From Paenibacillus aceti (lineage in GTDB: Bacteria > Bacillota > Bacilli > Paenibacillales > Paenibacillaceae), in assembly GCF_003614185.1 (NCBI RefSeq), contig NZ_KZ987724.1, positions 4,185,068-4,249,067 on the forward strand: a stretch of 64,000 bases of DNA, read 5' to 3'. A program made the translations under genes and the position numbers. The notes under the pieces were generated by a model, which made no database searches, was not told where the DNA came from, and saw only the letters and a list, made by a program, of their open reading frames with translations. Below are positions 48,958 through 64,000 of the stretch, piece by piece (within the stretch, counting starts at the first letter, position 1; every line of letters begins with the position of its first letter).

Positions 48958-49425
48958 TTAGCTCGCTTTTTCTCCGTTAATCATCGCATCTAATTCGCTG
49001 ATCTCCGCGCGAATCTCTTCGTCAGTCTTAACTCGCGTCTGAACGGTATCACGCATATCCTCAACGACAGTACGATCGGTGAGCAATCCGTATCGACGAA
49101 AGAATAAGTCGAGCGCTTTAACGGAAGGAACTCCGTTTGCTCCTCCGCGAATCAATTTCATTAATTGAACGTAAGCTTCCGAACGCATTGCGTCGAGATT
49201 ACGTTCAGATAAGTAGTTAACGTAAGCTGCGAAATGCTCTTGCGATTTCCATTCGAATAAAGTCGAGCGAGCAATTCCTAACTCGTCCGCGAGCTCCTGC
49301 ATTGTCTTCTTCTTTCCACCCTCGCCTAGCAACTCGCCCCATTCGTTCTGAACAAATAGCTGCGCGGCCTTCTCTTGCTGCGGTGTGAGCTGCGCCTCTA
49401 ATACCTTTCGTTGTCTACTCATCAA
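48958..49425 (-). CDS. phBC6A51-type HTH protein, small-terminase-like (155 aa)
   Basis: The N-terminal HTH (LTPQQEKAAQLFVQNEWGE, MQELADELGIARSTLFEWKSQEHFAAYV) and helical C-terminus match the phBC6A51-family phage HTH proteins that usually precede or act as the small terminase subunit, which recognises the packaging site. No large subunit is present. In satellites a private small terminase redirects packaging of a helper phage; that role here is inference. It overlaps the gene upstream by 11 bases. Confidence 0.7.
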   Translation of the reverse strand: MMSRQRKVLEAQLTPQQEKAAQLFVQNEWGELLGEGGKKKTMQELADELGIARSTLFEWKSQEHFAAYVNYLSERNLDAMRSEAYVQLMKLIRGGANGVPSVKALDLFFRRYGLLTDRTVVEDMRDTVQTRVKTDEEIRAEISELDAMINGEKAS

Positions 49426-49993
49426 TATCGTCCTCCTCTATAATCTTGTTCGCGGCATCAATCGCAGCCTGTAACGCGTCCGGATCGGCCAATAGGCGCC
49501 TGGCTTCCTTCTTCGCGTCCATATCGTATTTACCGTATTGATCGAGCAAGTCATGATCTAAGCTGTCATCCTTCGTCATCCATTCGATATAAATACGAAT
49601 CTTGCGCATCTCGTCGCTTACGTTAATTTCTTCGGTTCTGCCCGCGTCAATCATTTCGGTAATATGCTTCATCGTATCCAGTACAGCCCCGGCCCCAAGC
49701 GCATGTACTCCACAGAAAAAGCCGACGGAGTGATCCAGCAATCGAACCGCCTCAACGTATTCGCCAAGCTTACCCGTATCAATCCGCGTCACTTGTCCGG
49801 CCGCTAGGATCGACGCATATTTAACCGCGATTGCTCGGAACGGCTGCAGGCGCTCCACTAGCGCAAGCGATAACGGAATATCTACGAAATCTTCTCGCTC
49901 CGGCGGATCGGGCGTAAGTCCCTGTTCGATACGGATTTGACGCAGGCGCTCCGTTAATGCCGCGATGTCAACACGAAGCTCATCATTCGTCAT
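49415..49993 (-). CDS. island hypothetical protein (192 aa)
   Basis: ATG 49993 follows GGGAGGTGAAGAGG. Acidic, helical protein with LSLALVERLQPFRAIAVKYA and an aspartate/glutamate-rich end (KIIEEDDIDE). No family recognised. It overlaps the upstream small gene by 11 bases. Confidence 0.7.
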   Translation of the reverse strand: MTNDELRVDIAALTERLRQIRIEQGLTPDPPEREDFVDIPLSLALVERLQPFRAIAVKYASILAAGQVTRIDTGKLGEYVEAVRLLDHSVGFFCGVHALGAGAVLDTMKHITEMIDAGRTEEINVSDEMRKIRIYIEWMTKDDSLDHDLLDQYGKYDMDAKKEARRLLADPDALQAAIDAANKIIEEDDIDE

Positions 49994-50174
49994 CCTCTTC
50001 ACCTCCCTCTAACGCAAGCAGCGCAGTCGTTACCGCGTCGTCCAGCGCTCGTAAAACGGATAGTCGCGTATCGGCATCAGGCAACGCGGATATAACTGCG
50101 CTGATAGTTGCGGTAAGCTCCGTGTATGGTTGCGCGAGGTCTATCGTACATTCGATTAAATTACGTTGAATCAT
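49983..50174 (-). CDS. island small protein (63 aa)
   Basis: ATG 50174 follows GGAGGGAATCGC. Starts MIQRNLIECTIDLAQPY and ends with an acidic tail (EGGEEDDE). Unknown family; part of the late operon. Confidence 0.6.
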   Translation of the reverse strand: MIQRNLIECTIDLAQPYTELTATISAVISALPDADTRLSVLRALDDAVTTALLALEGGEEDDE

Positions 50175-50247
50175 GCGATTCCCTCCGTTTTTAAACACAC
50201 GAAAAAGAGCCCGCATAATTGCGAGCCCCTTTCGAATATGTTCGTTA

Positions 50248-50814
50248 TTATTTTCCGAGCTGCGCTTCTAATTTCGCGATTTCCGCCTCGGCTGCGGTTA
50301 TTTTCGCTTGAATATCGGCGATTTCATCCTGTGCCTTTTTTAGCTTTTCTTCCGCGCCAGATGTATCCATCTTTATAACGTCTTCACCGGCTTCTTTATT
50401 CCAGGCTTCGGCTCTTTCGATTGCTGATTCAGCCTGTTTTATTGTTTCTTTATTACCGTCAATCGTAGCTTGCCAAAAGACGATATTATTTCGCAGTGTA
50501 TTGATTTGGTCTTTTACCTTTAGTTCCTTTACAACTTCTTCCTCTGTGCGGTTTATAGTTTCAGGCATTGTTAACTGTACCTCTCCTTTCTCAACCTTAA
50601 CCGTGTAGCCGGATGCCTCTGAAAAGCTCCGAACTGGTGCATAAGTCGTTCCGTCTATTACTACGGCATCTTTCACGGCCTTTCCGTTTACAGTAACCGC
50701 GATTACGCCCTGTACCTTCTTTCCGATTAACGAACTCGTTGCGGCGGATACAACTGCGGTCAGTGAGCCCACTAATACTATTGAAGCAACTAACGAATAA
50801 ACAAGTTTTTTCAT
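50248..50814 (-). CDS. secreted protein with copper-amine-oxidase-N-like domain and coiled coil (188 aa)
   Basis: ATG 50814 gives a signal peptide (MKKLVYSLVASIVLVGSL, cut after VSA). Residues 25-85 resemble the stalk-type copper amine oxidase N-terminal domain common in Paenibacillus (VTVNGKAVKDAVVIDGTTYAPVR). The rest is a long coiled coil (about 90-188). Secretion suggests a host-surface role or a lysogenic conversion factor rather than a virion part. It sits directly after the Ntn-hydrolase fusion. Confidence 0.75.
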   Translation of the reverse strand: MKKLVYSLVASIVLVGSLTAVVSAATSSLIGKKVQGVIAVTVNGKAVKDAVVIDGTTYAPVRSFSEASGYTVKVEKGEVQLTMPETINRTEEEVVKELKVKDQINTLRNNIVFWQATIDGNKETIKQAESAIERAEAWNKEAGEDVIKMDTSGAEEKLKKAQDEIADIQAKITAAEAEIAKLEAQLGK

Positions 50815-50861: not shown

Positions 50862-52028
50862 CTATTTTGGGATGTTTACTATCGCGAGTGTTTGGCCGGT
50901 TGTACTATATAACTTTAAGTTTCGCGTAGAAGTATCAAACGTCATATTTGTCGCCGTCTCGCTCTTACTCGGTTTATCGCTTATTAAGCTTCGTAAACTA
51001 TACAATTCGCTTTGCAACCCGTCGACATTCGAAATAGAGATACCTGTCGCGCCTCTTCCAAATTCTACGGGGTCCGAAAAATATGTTCTTCCTTGTACTT
51101 GAACCGTCCCTCCGACAGCCGCGAGAAAAAGGTTTCCGGAAGCGGCTAACGTCATTAGGCCCGGCTGCCCGTTCAAATAGCCATCAAGCCCTCTGGAACT
51201 CGAAAAGTGAATTGCATTTGATCCGTGTTGATTATTTTGGCTTATCGAAATGCGGACGGTATTACTCGAATCGTATACGCGCCATCCTCGAGAGTCCGTC
51301 TCCACACGCTCCCCACTCAGGGCCGTCCTCATGAGCGCGCCAGTTATTGTGCCACCAGTCAGCCCGCCCGACATGCTTTCCATATCAATAATTGGATACT
51401 TAACGACCTCATTGATTTTTTCTCGACTTAGCAACTTTGCTCCGAACGCATCCATACGGTATAAAGTAAGATCGCCCCCAATATCCCCGCCGGCCAAACT
51501 TTCAAACACGCCTTTAATTAATGTCCTCGGGTTTTTAACACCCGCAAGATTTGACGCAGTAGCTAATTCAAGCGCTTTGTCAGACTTACATCCACCTGCA
51601 ACAAGGTGTGTGAAACCCTTCTTACCTATTCTCTTTTCATCCTTAAACCCGGTATTATAATTAAATGAGTGGGAAACGGTTCGTCCACGCGAATCAATCT
51701 CAAAGCAAGCCACCCCGAGCAAAGACTCCCCTACTTCTTCTGCTGCTTTAACTTTCTCTGGCGTCTCCATCAGGATTTGACGGTATCTTTGTTTTATAAT
51801 CCGCTGTAAATTAAAAATTGATTTCACTTTTTCGCGTCTAAATGAACTAACCACGTCAAGCGCGGCGGATAGGTCGCCACATATAAACAGCAAATACTGG
51901 TCAACCTGCACCAATTTTTCAATCCCTTTAGCGCCTCTGCACCGTTTTCCGTCAATAGTGTGTGAAATTGCAGTATCCGCTCCGACAATAATGTGATCCT
52001 CGCTTTGCAAAAATACGCATAAGCTCAA
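50862..52028 (-). CDS. proteasome/HslV-like Ntn hydrolase fused to a tail-fibre-like domain (388 aa)
   Basis: A TTG at 52028, 5 bases after GGGAGGGG, starts M-SLCVFLQSEDHIIVGADTA. Counting the Ser after Met as 1, the proteasome catalytic positions are filled: Ser1, Asp17 (GADTAIS) and Lys33 (RGAKGIEKL), with CGDLSAALDVV and a later AGGCKSDKALELA where beta-subunits have their glycine motifs. The Ntn-like fold spans about residues 1-200. From about 220 the sequence is phage fibre-like (GGLTGGTITGALMRTALSG, WRVYDSSNTVRISISQ, LFLAAVGGTVQVQG). An upstream in-frame ATG at 52076 has no ribosome-binding site and would bury the nucleophile. Function is unknown: a structural-protein protease, or a fibre that cleaves itself, are options. 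Confidence 0.7.
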   Translation of the reverse strand: MSLCVFLQSEDHIIVGADTAISHTIDGKRCRGAKGIEKLVQVDQYLLFICGDLSAALDVVSSFRREKVKSIFNLQRIIKQRYRQILMETPEKVKAAEEVGESLLGVACFEIDSRGRTVSHSFNYNTGFKDEKRIGKKGFTHLVAGGCKSDKALELATASNLAGVKNPRTLIKGVFESLAGGDIGGDLTLYRMDAFGAKLLSREKINEVVKYPIIDMESMSGGLTGGTITGALMRTALSGERVETDSRGWRVYDSSNTVRISISQNNQHGSNAIHFSSSRGLDGYLNGQPGLMTLAASGNLFLAAVGGTVQVQGRTYFSDPVEFGRGATGISISNVDGLQSELYSLRSLISDKPSKSETATNMTFDTSTRNLKLYSTTGQTLAIVNIPK

Positions 52029-52102
52029 ATAAACCCCTCCCAAATTAAAGTAAAAGCGGACCCAAAGGCCCGCCAATTCATCCGTTTAATCAATTTAATA
52101 GT

Positions 52103-52963
52103 CTATTCTGTAGCCTTACTAGCTTCACGCTCACGGGCATCCTGGTTTATCCTCCGCCAAAAATCCCTTTGTTCTTCTGTCCACTCAAACGGGTCATTCT
52201 GTTGCTTTGGGTTTGCATCCTTCTTGATTTCTTCTTTCGGTCGCTCGTCTTCGTGAGCTGCGAAATAATCGTCTGTCCGATTTATATAAGACCCGTAATA
52301 AGTTCCCAATGTATCGTTAACCGCACCGCGTACAATTTCGTTAAAAAAGGCCGTCTGATCCAAGGCGGTGGCTGTCTCTAACGAGTCTCTAGCTGCCCCG
52401 GCTTCCGGAGATTCGTATTTCGAGGTTAATCCGCTAAATTGCTGCGATAAAGCATACCGAGTTTTGGCGAGTTCACCAGGCTCCTCTACTGCGAGAATCG
52501 ATCCAGCCAACTCCCCGAACTGTTCAGAAACTTTATGCGCGAAGTAAGGTTCTTCGATTCCTTCGATAAACGCCGTTAGTTTGGCCGCCGCTGATTTCGC
52601 GTTATGTGTTAGCATAATCTCCGTTTTAAGTACGCGCAGGGCTTCGTCGAAACGATCGATCTTCGTTGCGTCCGGCTTCGGAATCTTTGTATAAATTACT
52701 TCCTCGGCGTGCTTTCTAGCTTCGGACAAGTGCGCGCGGAACTCTTGGCGACGCTTATATACTTGCTGCATAAGTTCTTTACCGCGCTTTTCCTTAATCT
52801 CAGAGACTTTGTTTGTTTGGCCTTCCGGAGATAGATTGCGGTCTTCTTTAACTGCGGTGATCTCTTTGCGGATAGCGTCGTTAAACTCTCGATAAAAACG
52901 TGTATTGTCATTCCGTAATTCGTGCGCTTTCAAGATACTTTCTTTAGCTTTTTGCTGGCTCAT
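52103..52963 (-). CDS. island helical protein (286 aa)
   Basis: Almost all alpha-helix with heptad character in residues 1-110 (AIRKEITAVKEDRNLSP, VYKRRQEFRAHLSEARKHAEE), a middle helical part and a charged Asp/Glu/Lys tail (EWTEEQRDFWRRINQDA). No family recognised. Its place before the fibre-like gene allows a scaffolding or structural role, but this is a guess. Confidence 0.65.
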   Translation of the reverse strand: MSQQKAKESILKAHELRNDNTRFYREFNDAIRKEITAVKEDRNLSPEGQTNKVSEIKEKRGKELMQQVYKRRQEFRAHLSEARKHAEEVIYTKIPKPDATKIDRFDEALRVLKTEIMLTHNAKSAAAKLTAFIEGIEEPYFAHKVSEQFGELAGSILAVEEPGELAKTRYALSQQFSGLTSKYESPEAGAARDSLETATALDQTAFFNEIVRGAVNDTLGTYYGSYINRTDDYFAAHEDERPKEEIKKDANPKQQNDPFEWTEEQRDFWRRINQDAREREASKATE

Positions 52964-52994: not shown

Positions 52995-53600
52995 TTATTT
53001 CCGTTTAATACCGTCCGGTAACTCACGTCGATTTTTGATATTTCTTATGTCCATCTCTTTTACGAGTGGAAGGTTATAGTCCTGTTCAATCTCTGTAATG
53101 TAACGTGTCGTTCGTCTCTCTGCGTTACTTTCTCGATCTTCAAGTTCGGCAATTTCGCGACGAAGAGGGTCATATTTGTCAACCAATTCGTAAAAATCAA
53201 GTAATGCGTTGTACATATCACTCCGGGCGGACGCGAGTCTCCCAACAATAGGCGCAAGCTCTTTTTCGCGAACGCCATTAATAAAGTTTTCATTCCAATC
53301 AAGCGCAAGATCGAGCGCCTTAACTCGTCCCTCTTTCGACTTCTCAACTGTATAAGCAAATGCAGCGTCACGGAGTTCCTTCGCTTCCTGGACGGCCTTT
53401 TCTGCCTTATCAATAGCTGCCGTCGATTTTGCACGCTCTGCGGACAAGTCTACTCCTTCCTCAAACTCTCTCCGCAATAACTCCTGTTTCTGTGCGAGTT
53501 CCTCTGCTAGTTTATCCTCTGCGGCCTTCACGCTGGCCTCATGTTTGGCGCGCAATTCCATAAAGCGTCCTGCGTATCGTATTTCTCTTTCAGTTCCCAT
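52995..53600 (-). CDS. island coiled-coil protein (201 aa)
   Basis: Heptad-rich throughout (ASVKAAEDKLAEELAQKQEL, IDKAEKAVQEAKELRDAAF) with a C-terminal EIEQDYNLPLVKEMDI. ATG 53600 lies 4 bases after the previous stop. Unknown family; paired with the next helical protein. Confidence 0.65.
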   Translation of the reverse strand: MGTEREIRYAGRFMELRAKHEASVKAAEDKLAEELAQKQELLRREFEEGVDLSAERAKSTAAIDKAEKAVQEAKELRDAAFAYTVEKSKEGRVKALDLALDWNENFINGVREKELAPIVGRLASARSDMYNALLDFYELVDKYDPLRREIAELEDRESNAERRTTRYITEIEQDYNLPLVKEMDIRNIKNRRELPDGIKRK

Positions 53601-55675: not shown

Positions 55676-56590
55676 CTAGTTGAATAGTACTTTAATACCC
55701 GCAAGAGTCTCCGCCTTACCTGCGAACACGATACGCGGATTAACTATGATTCTGCGTTTTCGTTTATCGTTTACATCAGGAATTAATAAGAATACAGGCT
55801 TACCGTCGAGCTTGAGCGCGCCGAGTGCGGTACGCAGTTTATGCGTATCCTTATAGTTAAGCAGCGCGGCCAAATTCTCTAAATCCATGGGCTTTACCCG
55901 ATCTTCGTCAATCTCCTCCGGATTGAAACAAACGACGTTGAACGCGAAATTTATAAACGGTAGTACCGCGAAAACAATCGCCAGTTGCTTGATAGTCCGG
56001 CCGTTATATCGCTCGTATAGGTCACGAACCGTTTTCCGGAATAAGCGCGTGTGGCGATAATCATCGAGCTTATACTCCGCGTCTCCAAGTTTTCCGCGAT
56101 AAAATATCGATGGATTAATATAAATGTCGCCGTGCTCATTCTCGTCTTTTACGATCTCTTCTATGAGCAGCTTTTGATATAACTCAGAAAACCGCGCGCG
56201 ATTCATCCCGAGAAGTGCCTCAAGTGCCTTACGGTTAATCGGGCGGCCGTTGTCGTATTGGAGGCGTCCATCATAGTTCGTATATGTCCCAATAAACATC
56301 AGGCGCGCGAGATCGGATTGAGTAAGCGACGGGAAACGCTCGGCCATCGTCATACAGCCGTTAAATAGCGCGAATACGAATCCACCGTTTTCCTCCGCGT
56401 GGGTCCGGATTTCATCGAGAGACTTTTTGCCGCGGACTTGAGACTCTGGCGTTCTAAGCACAACCTCAAAATTCGCCAGACGCTCGCCAAATTCCGATTC
56501 GATCACATCTTTCTGCGCCAGTATTCCGCGCTTCGTTCGCGGTGTGAGGTTCATCCAATACCGTTGTTCTCGCATTCTATCGACTGCCAT
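55676..56590 (-). CDS. phage/plasmid replication-type winged-helix protein (304 aa)
   Basis: Residues about 60-170 carry the winged-helix pattern of Bacillus phage replication or MarR-like proteins: LTQSDLARLMFIGTYTNYDG, NGRPINRKALEALLGMNRAR, then DIYINPSIFYRGKL. A second helical domain follows with LAALLNYKDTHKLRTAL. It begins the late operon and is preceded by two copies of GTTCCYGAAAAGCAGT. A role as replication initiator is likely but not proven. Confidence 0.65.
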   Translation of the reverse strand: MAVDRMREQRYWMNLTPRTKRGILAQKDVIESEFGERLANFEVVLRTPESQVRGKKSLDEIRTHAEENGGFVFALFNGCMTMAERFPSLTQSDLARLMFIGTYTNYDGRLQYDNGRPINRKALEALLGMNRARFSELYQKLLIEEIVKDENEHGDIYINPSIFYRGKLGDAEYKLDDYRHTRLFRKTVRDLYERYNGRTIKQLAIVFAVLPFINFAFNVVCFNPEEIDEDRVKPMDLENLAALLNYKDTHKLRTALGALKLDGKPVFLLIPDVNDKRKRRIIVNPRIVFAGKAETLAGIKVLFN

Positions 56591-62994: not shown

Positions 62995-63762
62995 TCATTT
63001 CGCGGCCCTCTTCCGTTTGTACCGAAGCGCCTTATATTGCGCCAGCGCCGTCTTATATGCATCAACAAATAGGCCGACCGGATTTTTAACGTCGATCCGG
63101 GGCAGATTGGTGCGCATGTCTATCGTCATCATGACGTACTGCTCCGCGGCTAAATCTATTATTTCCGGATCGAGACGGTCGGGAAAATGGCGTAGAAGTG
63201 CCGCATATATATCCGCGAAATAAAAGTCACCGACTGCGTGCGTGTCGTTAAGTGGGATTGTGGATAGACGACGAGATAAGGCGGAAAGAGTAGCGTCATT
63301 CGTACAATCATTCTTAAAGTCATTATTATTTAAATCATTAATTACTAGGGGCGGTTTCACCGTAGACGGTTTTTCCATATCGGGAATTTCCGCTTGTGGA
63401 ATATCCGCACTTGGCTCCGGCTCTTGTGGCTCGATCGGCTCAACCGGGCGCTCAAATACAACCGTCTCATATCCGGTTATACGCTTCGTATCGGGGTCGC
63501 GTGTCTGGCGGCGCTCAATGTATCCCGCGGCTTCTAATTCTTTAATCGCTGAATAAACCGCGTCTTTGCCGTCTTTTGAACGTTTGACGAGGTCTGAAAC
63601 ATAAACGCGCCAGTCTGACGGTTTAGAGAGCAAATAGCCGAGCAGCCCCTTCGCTTTCCACGAAAGGCGCTCATCTGATAGAAAATATGGGTCAATAATC
63701 GCGTAAGAAGAATCACGCTTTGATACGCGGACAATACCGCCCTTACGTTGTTCTGTCGTCAT
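62995..63762 (-). CDS. phage replisome-type winged-helix protein (255 aa)
   Basis: Residues 15-100 form a winged helix (YAIIDPYFLSDERLSWKAKG, LLSKPSDWRVYVSDLVKRSK, YSAIKELEAAGYIERR), as in phage replication initiators; a Pro/Glu-rich linker (EPIEPQEPEPSADIP) and a helical C-terminal domain follow. Its start shares one base with the stop of the recombinase gene. Replication role is inferred. Confidence 0.75.
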   Translation of the reverse strand: MTTEQRKGGIVRVSKRDSSYAIIDPYFLSDERLSWKAKGLLGYLLSKPSDWRVYVSDLVKRSKDGKDAVYSAIKELEAAGYIERRQTRDPDTKRITGYETVVFERPVEPIEPQEPEPSADIPQAEIPDMEKPSTVKPPLVINDLNNNDFKNDCTNDATLSALSRRLSTIPLNDTHAVGDFYFADIYAALLRHFPDRLDPEIIDLAAEQYVMMTIDMRTNLPRIDVKNPVGLFVDAYKTALAQYKALRYKRKRAAK

Positions 63763-64000
63763 TAGTGCGAGCCCTCCCGCTTCATAATCCGCGTAAGAGG
63801 CGAGTGTTTCCGATGTTCGTCAGCAATACTTTCTTCGCTAATTTGGACGTACTTCCGCGTTGTTGATATGTCCGCGTGCCCCATGATCTTCTGTAAATGA
63901 AATATACTCATCCCGTTCTCTGCCGCCATTGTCGCAAAATTGTGGCGCAGCACGTGCGGCGATACACTCCGCCCCAGCTTAGCCTTCTCCGCGTATCTAT
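63762..64000 (-). CDS. tyrosine recombinase (phage integrase), C-terminal part
   Basis: The visible part has HVLRHNFAT (catalytic His-x-x-Arg), the second His in MGHADISTT and the nucleophile Tyr in RKYVQIS. The frame continues out of the window. It is the candidate integrase for the tRNA-Ser att site; its N-terminus and the other att should lie just beyond 64000. Confidence 0.92.
   Translation of the reverse strand, partial: RYAEKAKLGRSVSPHVLRHNFATMAAENGMSIFHLQKIMGHADISTTRKYVQISEESIADEHRKHSPLTRIMKREGSH

Follow-up and report, generated by a model that had tools for sequence, protein, structure and literature searches.

A proteasome-like Ntn-hydrolase domain joined to a phage tail-tip fibre in a satellite-like element of Paenibacillus aceti

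The window analysed in this study is a 64,000-nucleotide stretch of DNA, positions 4185068-4249067 on contig 1 of the 5.6-Mb genome of Paenibacillus aceti (G000). It contains a gene whose product, termed the Ntn-fibre protein here, joins a proteasome-like Ntn-hydrolase domain to the tip domain of phage tail proteins. In the sequences examined, such tips carry either a tail hub domain or the Ntn domain, never both. We propose, with moderate confidence, that the protein is a tail-tip fibre encoded by a satellite, in which the Ntn domain replaces the hub domain, docks the fibre on a hub, and has this hub or the tail as its target. The observations on which this proposal is built are the fold, the conserved residues, the homology of the tip, the exclusivity of hub and Ntn domains, and the element context.

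The Ntn-fibre protein is encoded by a single 388-codon frame at 50862-52028 on the minus strand. Its TTG initiator stands behind a ribosome-binding site, GGGAGGGG, at 52034-52041 (-). A longer frame also opens, at a TTG at 52076. The sequence-only reading had chosen the TTG directly before a Ser codon as the start, and comparison with related genes agrees with this choice. In 28/28 Ntn loci, whose start positions were set by us, the codon immediately 5' of the Ser codon is start-capable (ATG, TTG or GTG, and ATC once). The adjoining Ser codon is AGY in all 28 and TCN in 0/28. Most of these loci have a purine-rich stretch resembling a ribosome-binding site before the start, and L062 is one example without a clear site. 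In genome G539 the start of the Ntn-fibre gene is apparently an ATC directly before the Ser codon (L092:12885-12890, plus strand), preceded by AAGGAGGTG. A terminator-like hairpin is located just 5' of the window gene at 52055-52074 (-). Terminator-like sites in the region number 12 against 10.1 (sd 3.2) in shuffles and are thus not clearly more frequent. The 62-base stretches upstream of the gene have a folding z below -2 in 11/28 loci when compared with mononucleotide shuffles.

The Ntn-hydrolase domain comprises residues 1 to about 205 (51414-52028, minus strand). A confident structure model of the domain is an alpha-beta-beta-alpha sandwich of the proteasome type, and the model together with structure comparison bears out the proteasome-like Ntn fold that had been proposed from sequence. 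An alignment of 23 members, A1, was assembled from rows chosen by the Ser1/Asp17 pattern, and the fragmented match L057 was left out. Members of A1 share 18-30% identity with the window domain. Four residues are each invariant in A1 (23/23), two of them being those by which the rows were chosen: Ser1 (codon AGC, 52023-52025), Asp17 (51975-51977), Lys37 (51915-51917) and Gly50 (51876-51878), all on the minus strand. Ser1 would be the N-terminal nucleophile if Met is removed. By profile alignment, Lys37 pairs with the active-site Lys in a proteasome subunit of solved structure and is the equivalent of proteasome Lys33, and Gly50 probably corresponds to the oxyanion Gly47. Outside A1, 8/8 relatives (L005, L075, L078, L086, L090, L091, L092 and L099) likewise have Ser1, Asp17 and a Lys that aligns, L075 and L091 being near copies; in L075 and L099 the stretch was displayed by means of the Ser/Asp/Lys pattern and coincided with the beginning of the HMM match.

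The sequence-only reading had claimed the triad Ser/Thr1, Asp17 and Lys33, to be looked for in homologues. Ser1 and Asp17 are indeed kept, both in A1 and in the eight additional relatives, but Lys33 is not. The column for residue 33 is Lys in 2/23 members of A1, and residue 37 is Lys in every one, and Lys33 was rejected as the catalytic Lys on this ground. Asp166 and Ser169 are secondary residues of the proteasome; residues of this type are not clearly retained in the Ntn domain, as read from the alignment. The fold and the invariant residues exclude a chance resemblance to proteasome subunits. Judged from sequence, Ser1, Asp17 and Lys37 would form an Ntn active site after Met removal, with both the loss of Met and catalysis predicted.

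Kinship with HslV, part of the original description of this gene as proteasome/HslV-like, was put too strongly. When A1 was compared by hhalign with the HslV of the same genome, the probability was about 1% and E was 0.03-0.05, which is not significant and rules out a simple HslV homologue. The Pfam family PF00227 does not match the window protein, its sole finding in the same genome being HslV, and it matches 1/23 members of A1 (E 0.2). HslV is thus at most a distant relative. No HslV is among the 50 structure-comparison matches listed, though one may rank lower. PHROG 1040 (peptidase HslV family) matches 18/23 members of A1 at E up to 1, with 5.2e-5 as the best value, and gives no match to the window's own domain at E 1. 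On its own, the window protein has no significant match in Pfam (one chance-level match, E 0.15), and a sequence search of the PDB returned two chance-level matches only.

The family was found in a minority of the genomes searched. Matches to the whole protein were present in 25/99 genomes and to the N-terminal domain in 20/296. Searches at class and phylum level gave matches in 6/299 and 3/398 genomes respectively, so the family appears to be uncommon outside the family of the host. Genome contigs searched with the window protein yielded no match, and IMG/VR contigs searched with five query proteins yielded no relative of the window's domain.

The C-terminal half of the protein had been described as a tail-fibre-type sequence, and can now be identified as a phage tail tip. 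The tip of phage tail proteins corresponds to residues about 217-388 (50865-51380, minus strand), and its homologues are the C-terminal parts of Prophage_tail (PF06605) proteins. The only PHROG match of the window protein, phrog_32308, covers residues 216-352 (E 8e-15). Eighteen ORFs that share the tip (L002-L019) were classified by their N-termini: 3 have the Ntn domain, 11 a hub of the L007 type, 4 another N-terminus, and 0 have both hub and Ntn domain. These 18 are the tip relatives with an assigned locus; the genome search with the whole protein listed more tips. While 10/18 of the ORFs are cut at the 5' end, the cuts remove 4 to 75 residues relative to the open frame and are therefore too small to hide a domain of 205 residues. 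At its N-terminus L007 has the hub domain of the Prophage_tail family (PF06605, E 1.7e-24). The PF06605 profile was run on 3/11 hub-type ORFs, with L007 and L017 above the cut-off and L014 below it, and the remaining 8/11 were assigned by similarity to L007, weakly so for L019. The window tip is 49.7% identical over 159 aa to that of the hub-type L003. It is 57.0% identical over 158 aa to that of the Ntn-type L061, while the Ntn domains of the same two proteins share 23%. A close tip behind such divergent Ntn domains suggests that the two halves have been shuffled.

The genes around the Ntn-fibre gene, all of them on the minus strand, belong to a satellite-like element. Downstream are a stalk protein (50248-50814), which looks exported, its start resembling a signal peptide by eye, and which contains a Cu_amine_oxidN1-like stretch and a coiled coil and matches phrog_23118; backbone genes of 77 aa (49983-50216) and 195 aa (49415-50002); and the terminase small subunit TerS (48958-49425; phrog_7344, E 5.5e-23). 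Upstream are a 286-aa protein (52103-52963), 31.9% identical over 254 aa to L095:1102-1998, a coiled-coil-like 201-aa protein with weak Pfam matches below the cut-off (52995-53600), a phage-type gene with no assigned function (55676-56590; phrog_9501, E 2.1e-27), and a replication initiation protein (62995-63762; phrog_4707, E 5.6e-25). The C-terminal part of a tyrosine integrase lies at 63762-63953, and the gene continues outside the window (L065). This integrase is split over two overlapping frames (L065:2-815, minus strand), so the window copy of the element may not be mobile. In G036, which has a similar gene neighbourhood, the integrase is one 347-aa frame. MCP, portal, TerL, TMP and hub were unmatched when a few verified query proteins were compared with the called ORFs of the element, and PHROGs detected no capsid, portal, TerL, TMP or hub gene among 15 window proteins and one protein scanned from L065. 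The presence of TerS and an integrase with none of these structural genes matched is what makes the element satellite-like.

A sibling element (L095/L098) is present in the same genome. It contains an integrase, a tape-measure-like gene (TMP), a hub-fibre, a stalk, a 63-aa gene, a 195-aa gene and TerS. The sibling counterparts share 69.8% identity over 63 aa with the 77-aa backbone protein, 83.6% with the 195-aa protein and 96.8% with TerS. The hub-fibre of the sibling is 697 aa long and matches PF06605 (E 1.2e-25). Since the backbones of the two elements match, a single slot holds the hub-fibre in the sibling and the Ntn-fibre in the window's element.

Phage records gave no match for the window protein, for L059 or for the L054 domain. 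The sole query that matched phage records was L052, with four matches, of which two are in Sundance, one is in Perkons and one, a short one, is in an Alicyclobacillus phage. The exclusivity of hub and Ntn domain extends to a second tip family. In the Brevibacillus phage Sundance, the 'minor tail protein' gp039 holds hub and fibre in one chain, and the Ntn domain is absent from the entire 134,270-base record at E up to 1. The Sundance-type fibre occurs in seven Ntn-fibre genes of bacterial genomes with 61-69% identity. The tail module of Psychrobacillus phage Perkons includes ORF185, annotated as 'putative tail fiber protein', which has an Ntn head (E 1.2e-28) and a Sundance-type tip. The Perkons hub is encoded separately by ORF187 (PF06605, E 7.9e-17). 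G539 likewise has a separate hub and an Ntn-fibre in the same order as in Perkons. In each of the two, hub and Ntn-fibre are separated by a small gene (Perkons, L078:8203-9000; G539, L092:12556-12870), and that of G539 matches DUF559, which is restriction-endonuclease-like. The junction itself can be followed through a motif. The Sundance chain continues through it at residue 817, the Perkons hub ends within the corresponding stretch, and the Perkons Ntn-fibre picks up the motif at residue 205, immediately after the Ntn domain. About 6-7 kb behind its Ntn-fibre gene, Perkons has an annotated reverse transcriptase (L078:18055-19131, plus strand), and L053 has a weak Mtd_N match behind the Ntn domain (E 0.0013, below the cut-off). 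These two features could reflect a diversity-generating element near Ntn-fibre genes.

The neighbourhoods of the 28 Ntn loci were examined as stretches of about 20 kb with mechanical ORF calls, in which some genes may have escaped notice and the borders of elements are approximate. A tyrosine integrase is present in the fetched neighbourhood of 21/28 loci, with L065, L081, L082, L088 and L097 counted together with neighbouring loci. PF00589 matches 21/22 integrase candidates and a profile from a Pfam-verified member matches 22/22. A neighbouring integrase may not in every case belong to the element, and that of L092 sits among tail genes. Among the same 28 loci, counted with verified query proteins, 2 have a separate hub, 5 a tape measure, 4 a capsid gene and 3 TerL. 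The tape-measure gene is followed by the Ntn-fibre in L051, L058 and L061. L050/L088 is a head-encoding satellite. PHROGs identified in it a DnaD-like gene, portal, head protease, capsid, connectors, TerS and TerL, an integrase lies at the opposite end of the element, and the Ntn-fibre is its one recognised tail gene. Directly upstream of the Ntn-fibre in L045 is a phage transcriptional regulator (phrog_36, E 1.5e-8), which we take to be ArpU-like. The regulator and the tight gene spacing suggest late rather than constitutive expression. The group with Sundance tips (e.g. L052, L063 and L067) has no recognised structural genes in the fetched stretch. A stalk gene is found at most two genes downstream in 11/28 loci. 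The stalk gene also stands behind hub-fibres without an Ntn domain (L094 and L095), and was rejected as a clue to the function of that domain.

Several other arrangements were observed. NUMOD4/HNH homing-endonuclease genes lie near four Sundance-tip Ntn-fibres (L052:6758-7381, L064:8205-8864, L067:8227-8802 and L069:3930-4571), all four candidates matching when tested (4/4), and a homing cassette at the hub-fibre junction is possible. In a satellite-like element of G008, the gene immediately before that of the Ntn-fibre codes for a second, stand-alone proteasome-like protein (L047:9646-10251, plus strand). It matches PF00227 above the cut-off (E 1.2e-7) and has, by eye, a Thr after Met and Asp17. 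The Ntn ORFs L056:9605-10273 and L049:9784-10608 overlap the next frame, which holds a fibre-like part, by a few bases, and may be either separate proteins or frameshifted genes. G036 has a second Ntn-fibre copy in three pieces (L057:8038-9962, minus strand) beside the intact copy in L058.

From this body of evidence we infer Met removal, catalysis, location in the virion, docking and a substrate. In the scheme that we prefer, loss of Met would expose an N-terminal Ser1, which with Asp17 and Lys37 would become the active site of an Ntn hydrolase. The Ntn domain would stand in for the Prophage_tail hub domain that is fused to the same tips in phages. With the Ntn domain in the place of the hub, docking would most simply substitute for a covalently continuous chain, and a satellite fibre would have to reach a hub from another gene. 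That hub would be supplied by the helper or, in Perkons and G539, by a separate gene. The Ntn domain would dock the fibre on the tail hub during assembly, and may then act on the hub or tail by cutting, by a longer-lived acyl link or by ligation. The unchanged nucleophile and helper residues point to an action on the hub or on another tail protein. Neither a partner interface nor a cleavage site came to light.

The absence of recognised structural genes around some of the Sundance-tip Ntn-fibres would also fit a stand-alone effector. Such an effector may be an interference protein whose fibre half mimics the tail tip of the helper and whose Ntn half cuts tail proteins, by which competing phages would be blocked or the helper diverted. 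The head is protease-like, the tips are very close to those of phages, reaching 68.8% identity over 802 aa to Sundance, and the central tail fibre is the reported target of the Tai systems that PICIs, prophages and P4-like satellites carry (PMC11364771). However, an isolated phage, Perkons, has an Ntn-fibre in its own tail module, the Ntn-fibre fills the hub-fibre slot behind the TMP, and the timing suggested by the phrog_36 regulator upstream in L045 would be late. We regard interference as unlikely, though it is the strongest of the alternatives.

Enzyme domains joined to fibre tips are common in phages. It is a little less likely again that the protein is a virion-borne enzyme that cuts a polymer of the host surface at infection, the fibre binding and the Ntn head cutting peptide cross-links, the S-layer or a gamma-glutamyl polymer. 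Full conservation of Ser1, Asp17, Lys37 and Gly50 in A1 would suit such an enzyme, but the Ntn domain is at the end nearest the virion, which is the site of attachment domains, and it swaps with the hub. Moreover, the family of proteasome homologues extends from a protease (the proteasome) to a protein ligase (connectase; PMC8665760). By analogy with connectase, the Ntn head could be a fibre-grafting enzyme, a reading to which we give rather little weight. Ser1 would attack a peptide bond of the hub and retain part of the hub through an acyl or amide link. In this way a separately made fibre, even that of a satellite, would be covalently joined to a hub whose end is the motif through which fused hub-fibres run on. 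A hub gene split off, as in Perkons, and a junction motif that restarts behind the Ntn domain fit what post-translational re-joining would need. Least probable of all is docking only, with the fold used without relevant catalysis: the same fold is found in the alpha subunits of the proteasome, which lack catalytic activity (PMC8665760), yet Ser1, Asp17, Lys37 and Gly50 are invariant throughout A1, despite its identities of 18-30% to the window domain, and Ser1, Asp17 and the aligned Lys recur in the eight further relatives.

Returning to a satellite fibre docked by its Ntn domain, the results connect an orphan family of proteasome homologues with the tail tips of satellites and phages and with a naturally occurring exchange with the hub domain. 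They suggest that some satellites supply a tail tip of their own, and with it possibly a distinct receptor specificity, beyond the tails that they borrow. The Ntn part may show how phage parasites fit or process a fibre of their own. A testable question is raised, namely whether an enzyme with the proteasome fold attaches or trims fibres.

The join between the two domains had been thought undescribed. It was very probably published in 2021, when Fuchs, Alva and Lupas catalogued 22 new proteasome homologues (PMC8665760). One of these, Firmicute Cluster 4 (FC4), has a proteasome-like N-terminal domain and C-terminal domains like phage tail proteins, is marked in one column of their Table 1, which we read as Firmicutes, and is represented by WP_076223917.1. 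We consider it very probable that the family described here is FC4, as matched by the description of FC4 and not by its sequences. The hosts of the related phages suggest a Firmicute host here. In that paper, the structure of FC4 is not shown because the authors doubted the model, and no genomic context suggestive of function is reported for it. PMC9703825 names both Perkons and Sundance, and the word 'proteasome' is absent from it. In the open-licence literature searched, no satellite with such fibres was found. As the join is already in the FC4 paper, the novelty here is in the context and the hub exchange, not in the join. FC4 and the present family share the proteasome-like N-terminus and a C-terminus resembling phage tail proteins; what is added here is a confident model, a satellite context and one phage record.

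Other known systems share one or the other half of this arrangement. With HslV, the Ntn domain has in common the active-site scheme of Ser/Thr1, Asp17, Lys and Gly (PMC8665760). The 20S proteasome beta subunits and Anbu differ from the present protein, in which the Lys is at residue 37 by way of a longer loop, a fibre is fused to the domain and PF00227 is negative. Prophage endopeptidase tail proteins (PF06605, the tail hub) share tip modules with the window protein, but their hub domain is replaced here by the Ntn domain. The gene set of L050/L088 is like that of the capsid-forming PICI satellites, as we understand that class to be defined, but it ends in an Ntn-fibre and a stalk. Sundance gp039 shares its fibre with Ntn-fibres, whereas in Sundance this fibre is fused to the hub. 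The closest phage counterpart, Perkons ORF185, has like the window protein an Ntn head and a fibre, but its tip is of the Sundance type and its hub is separately encoded.
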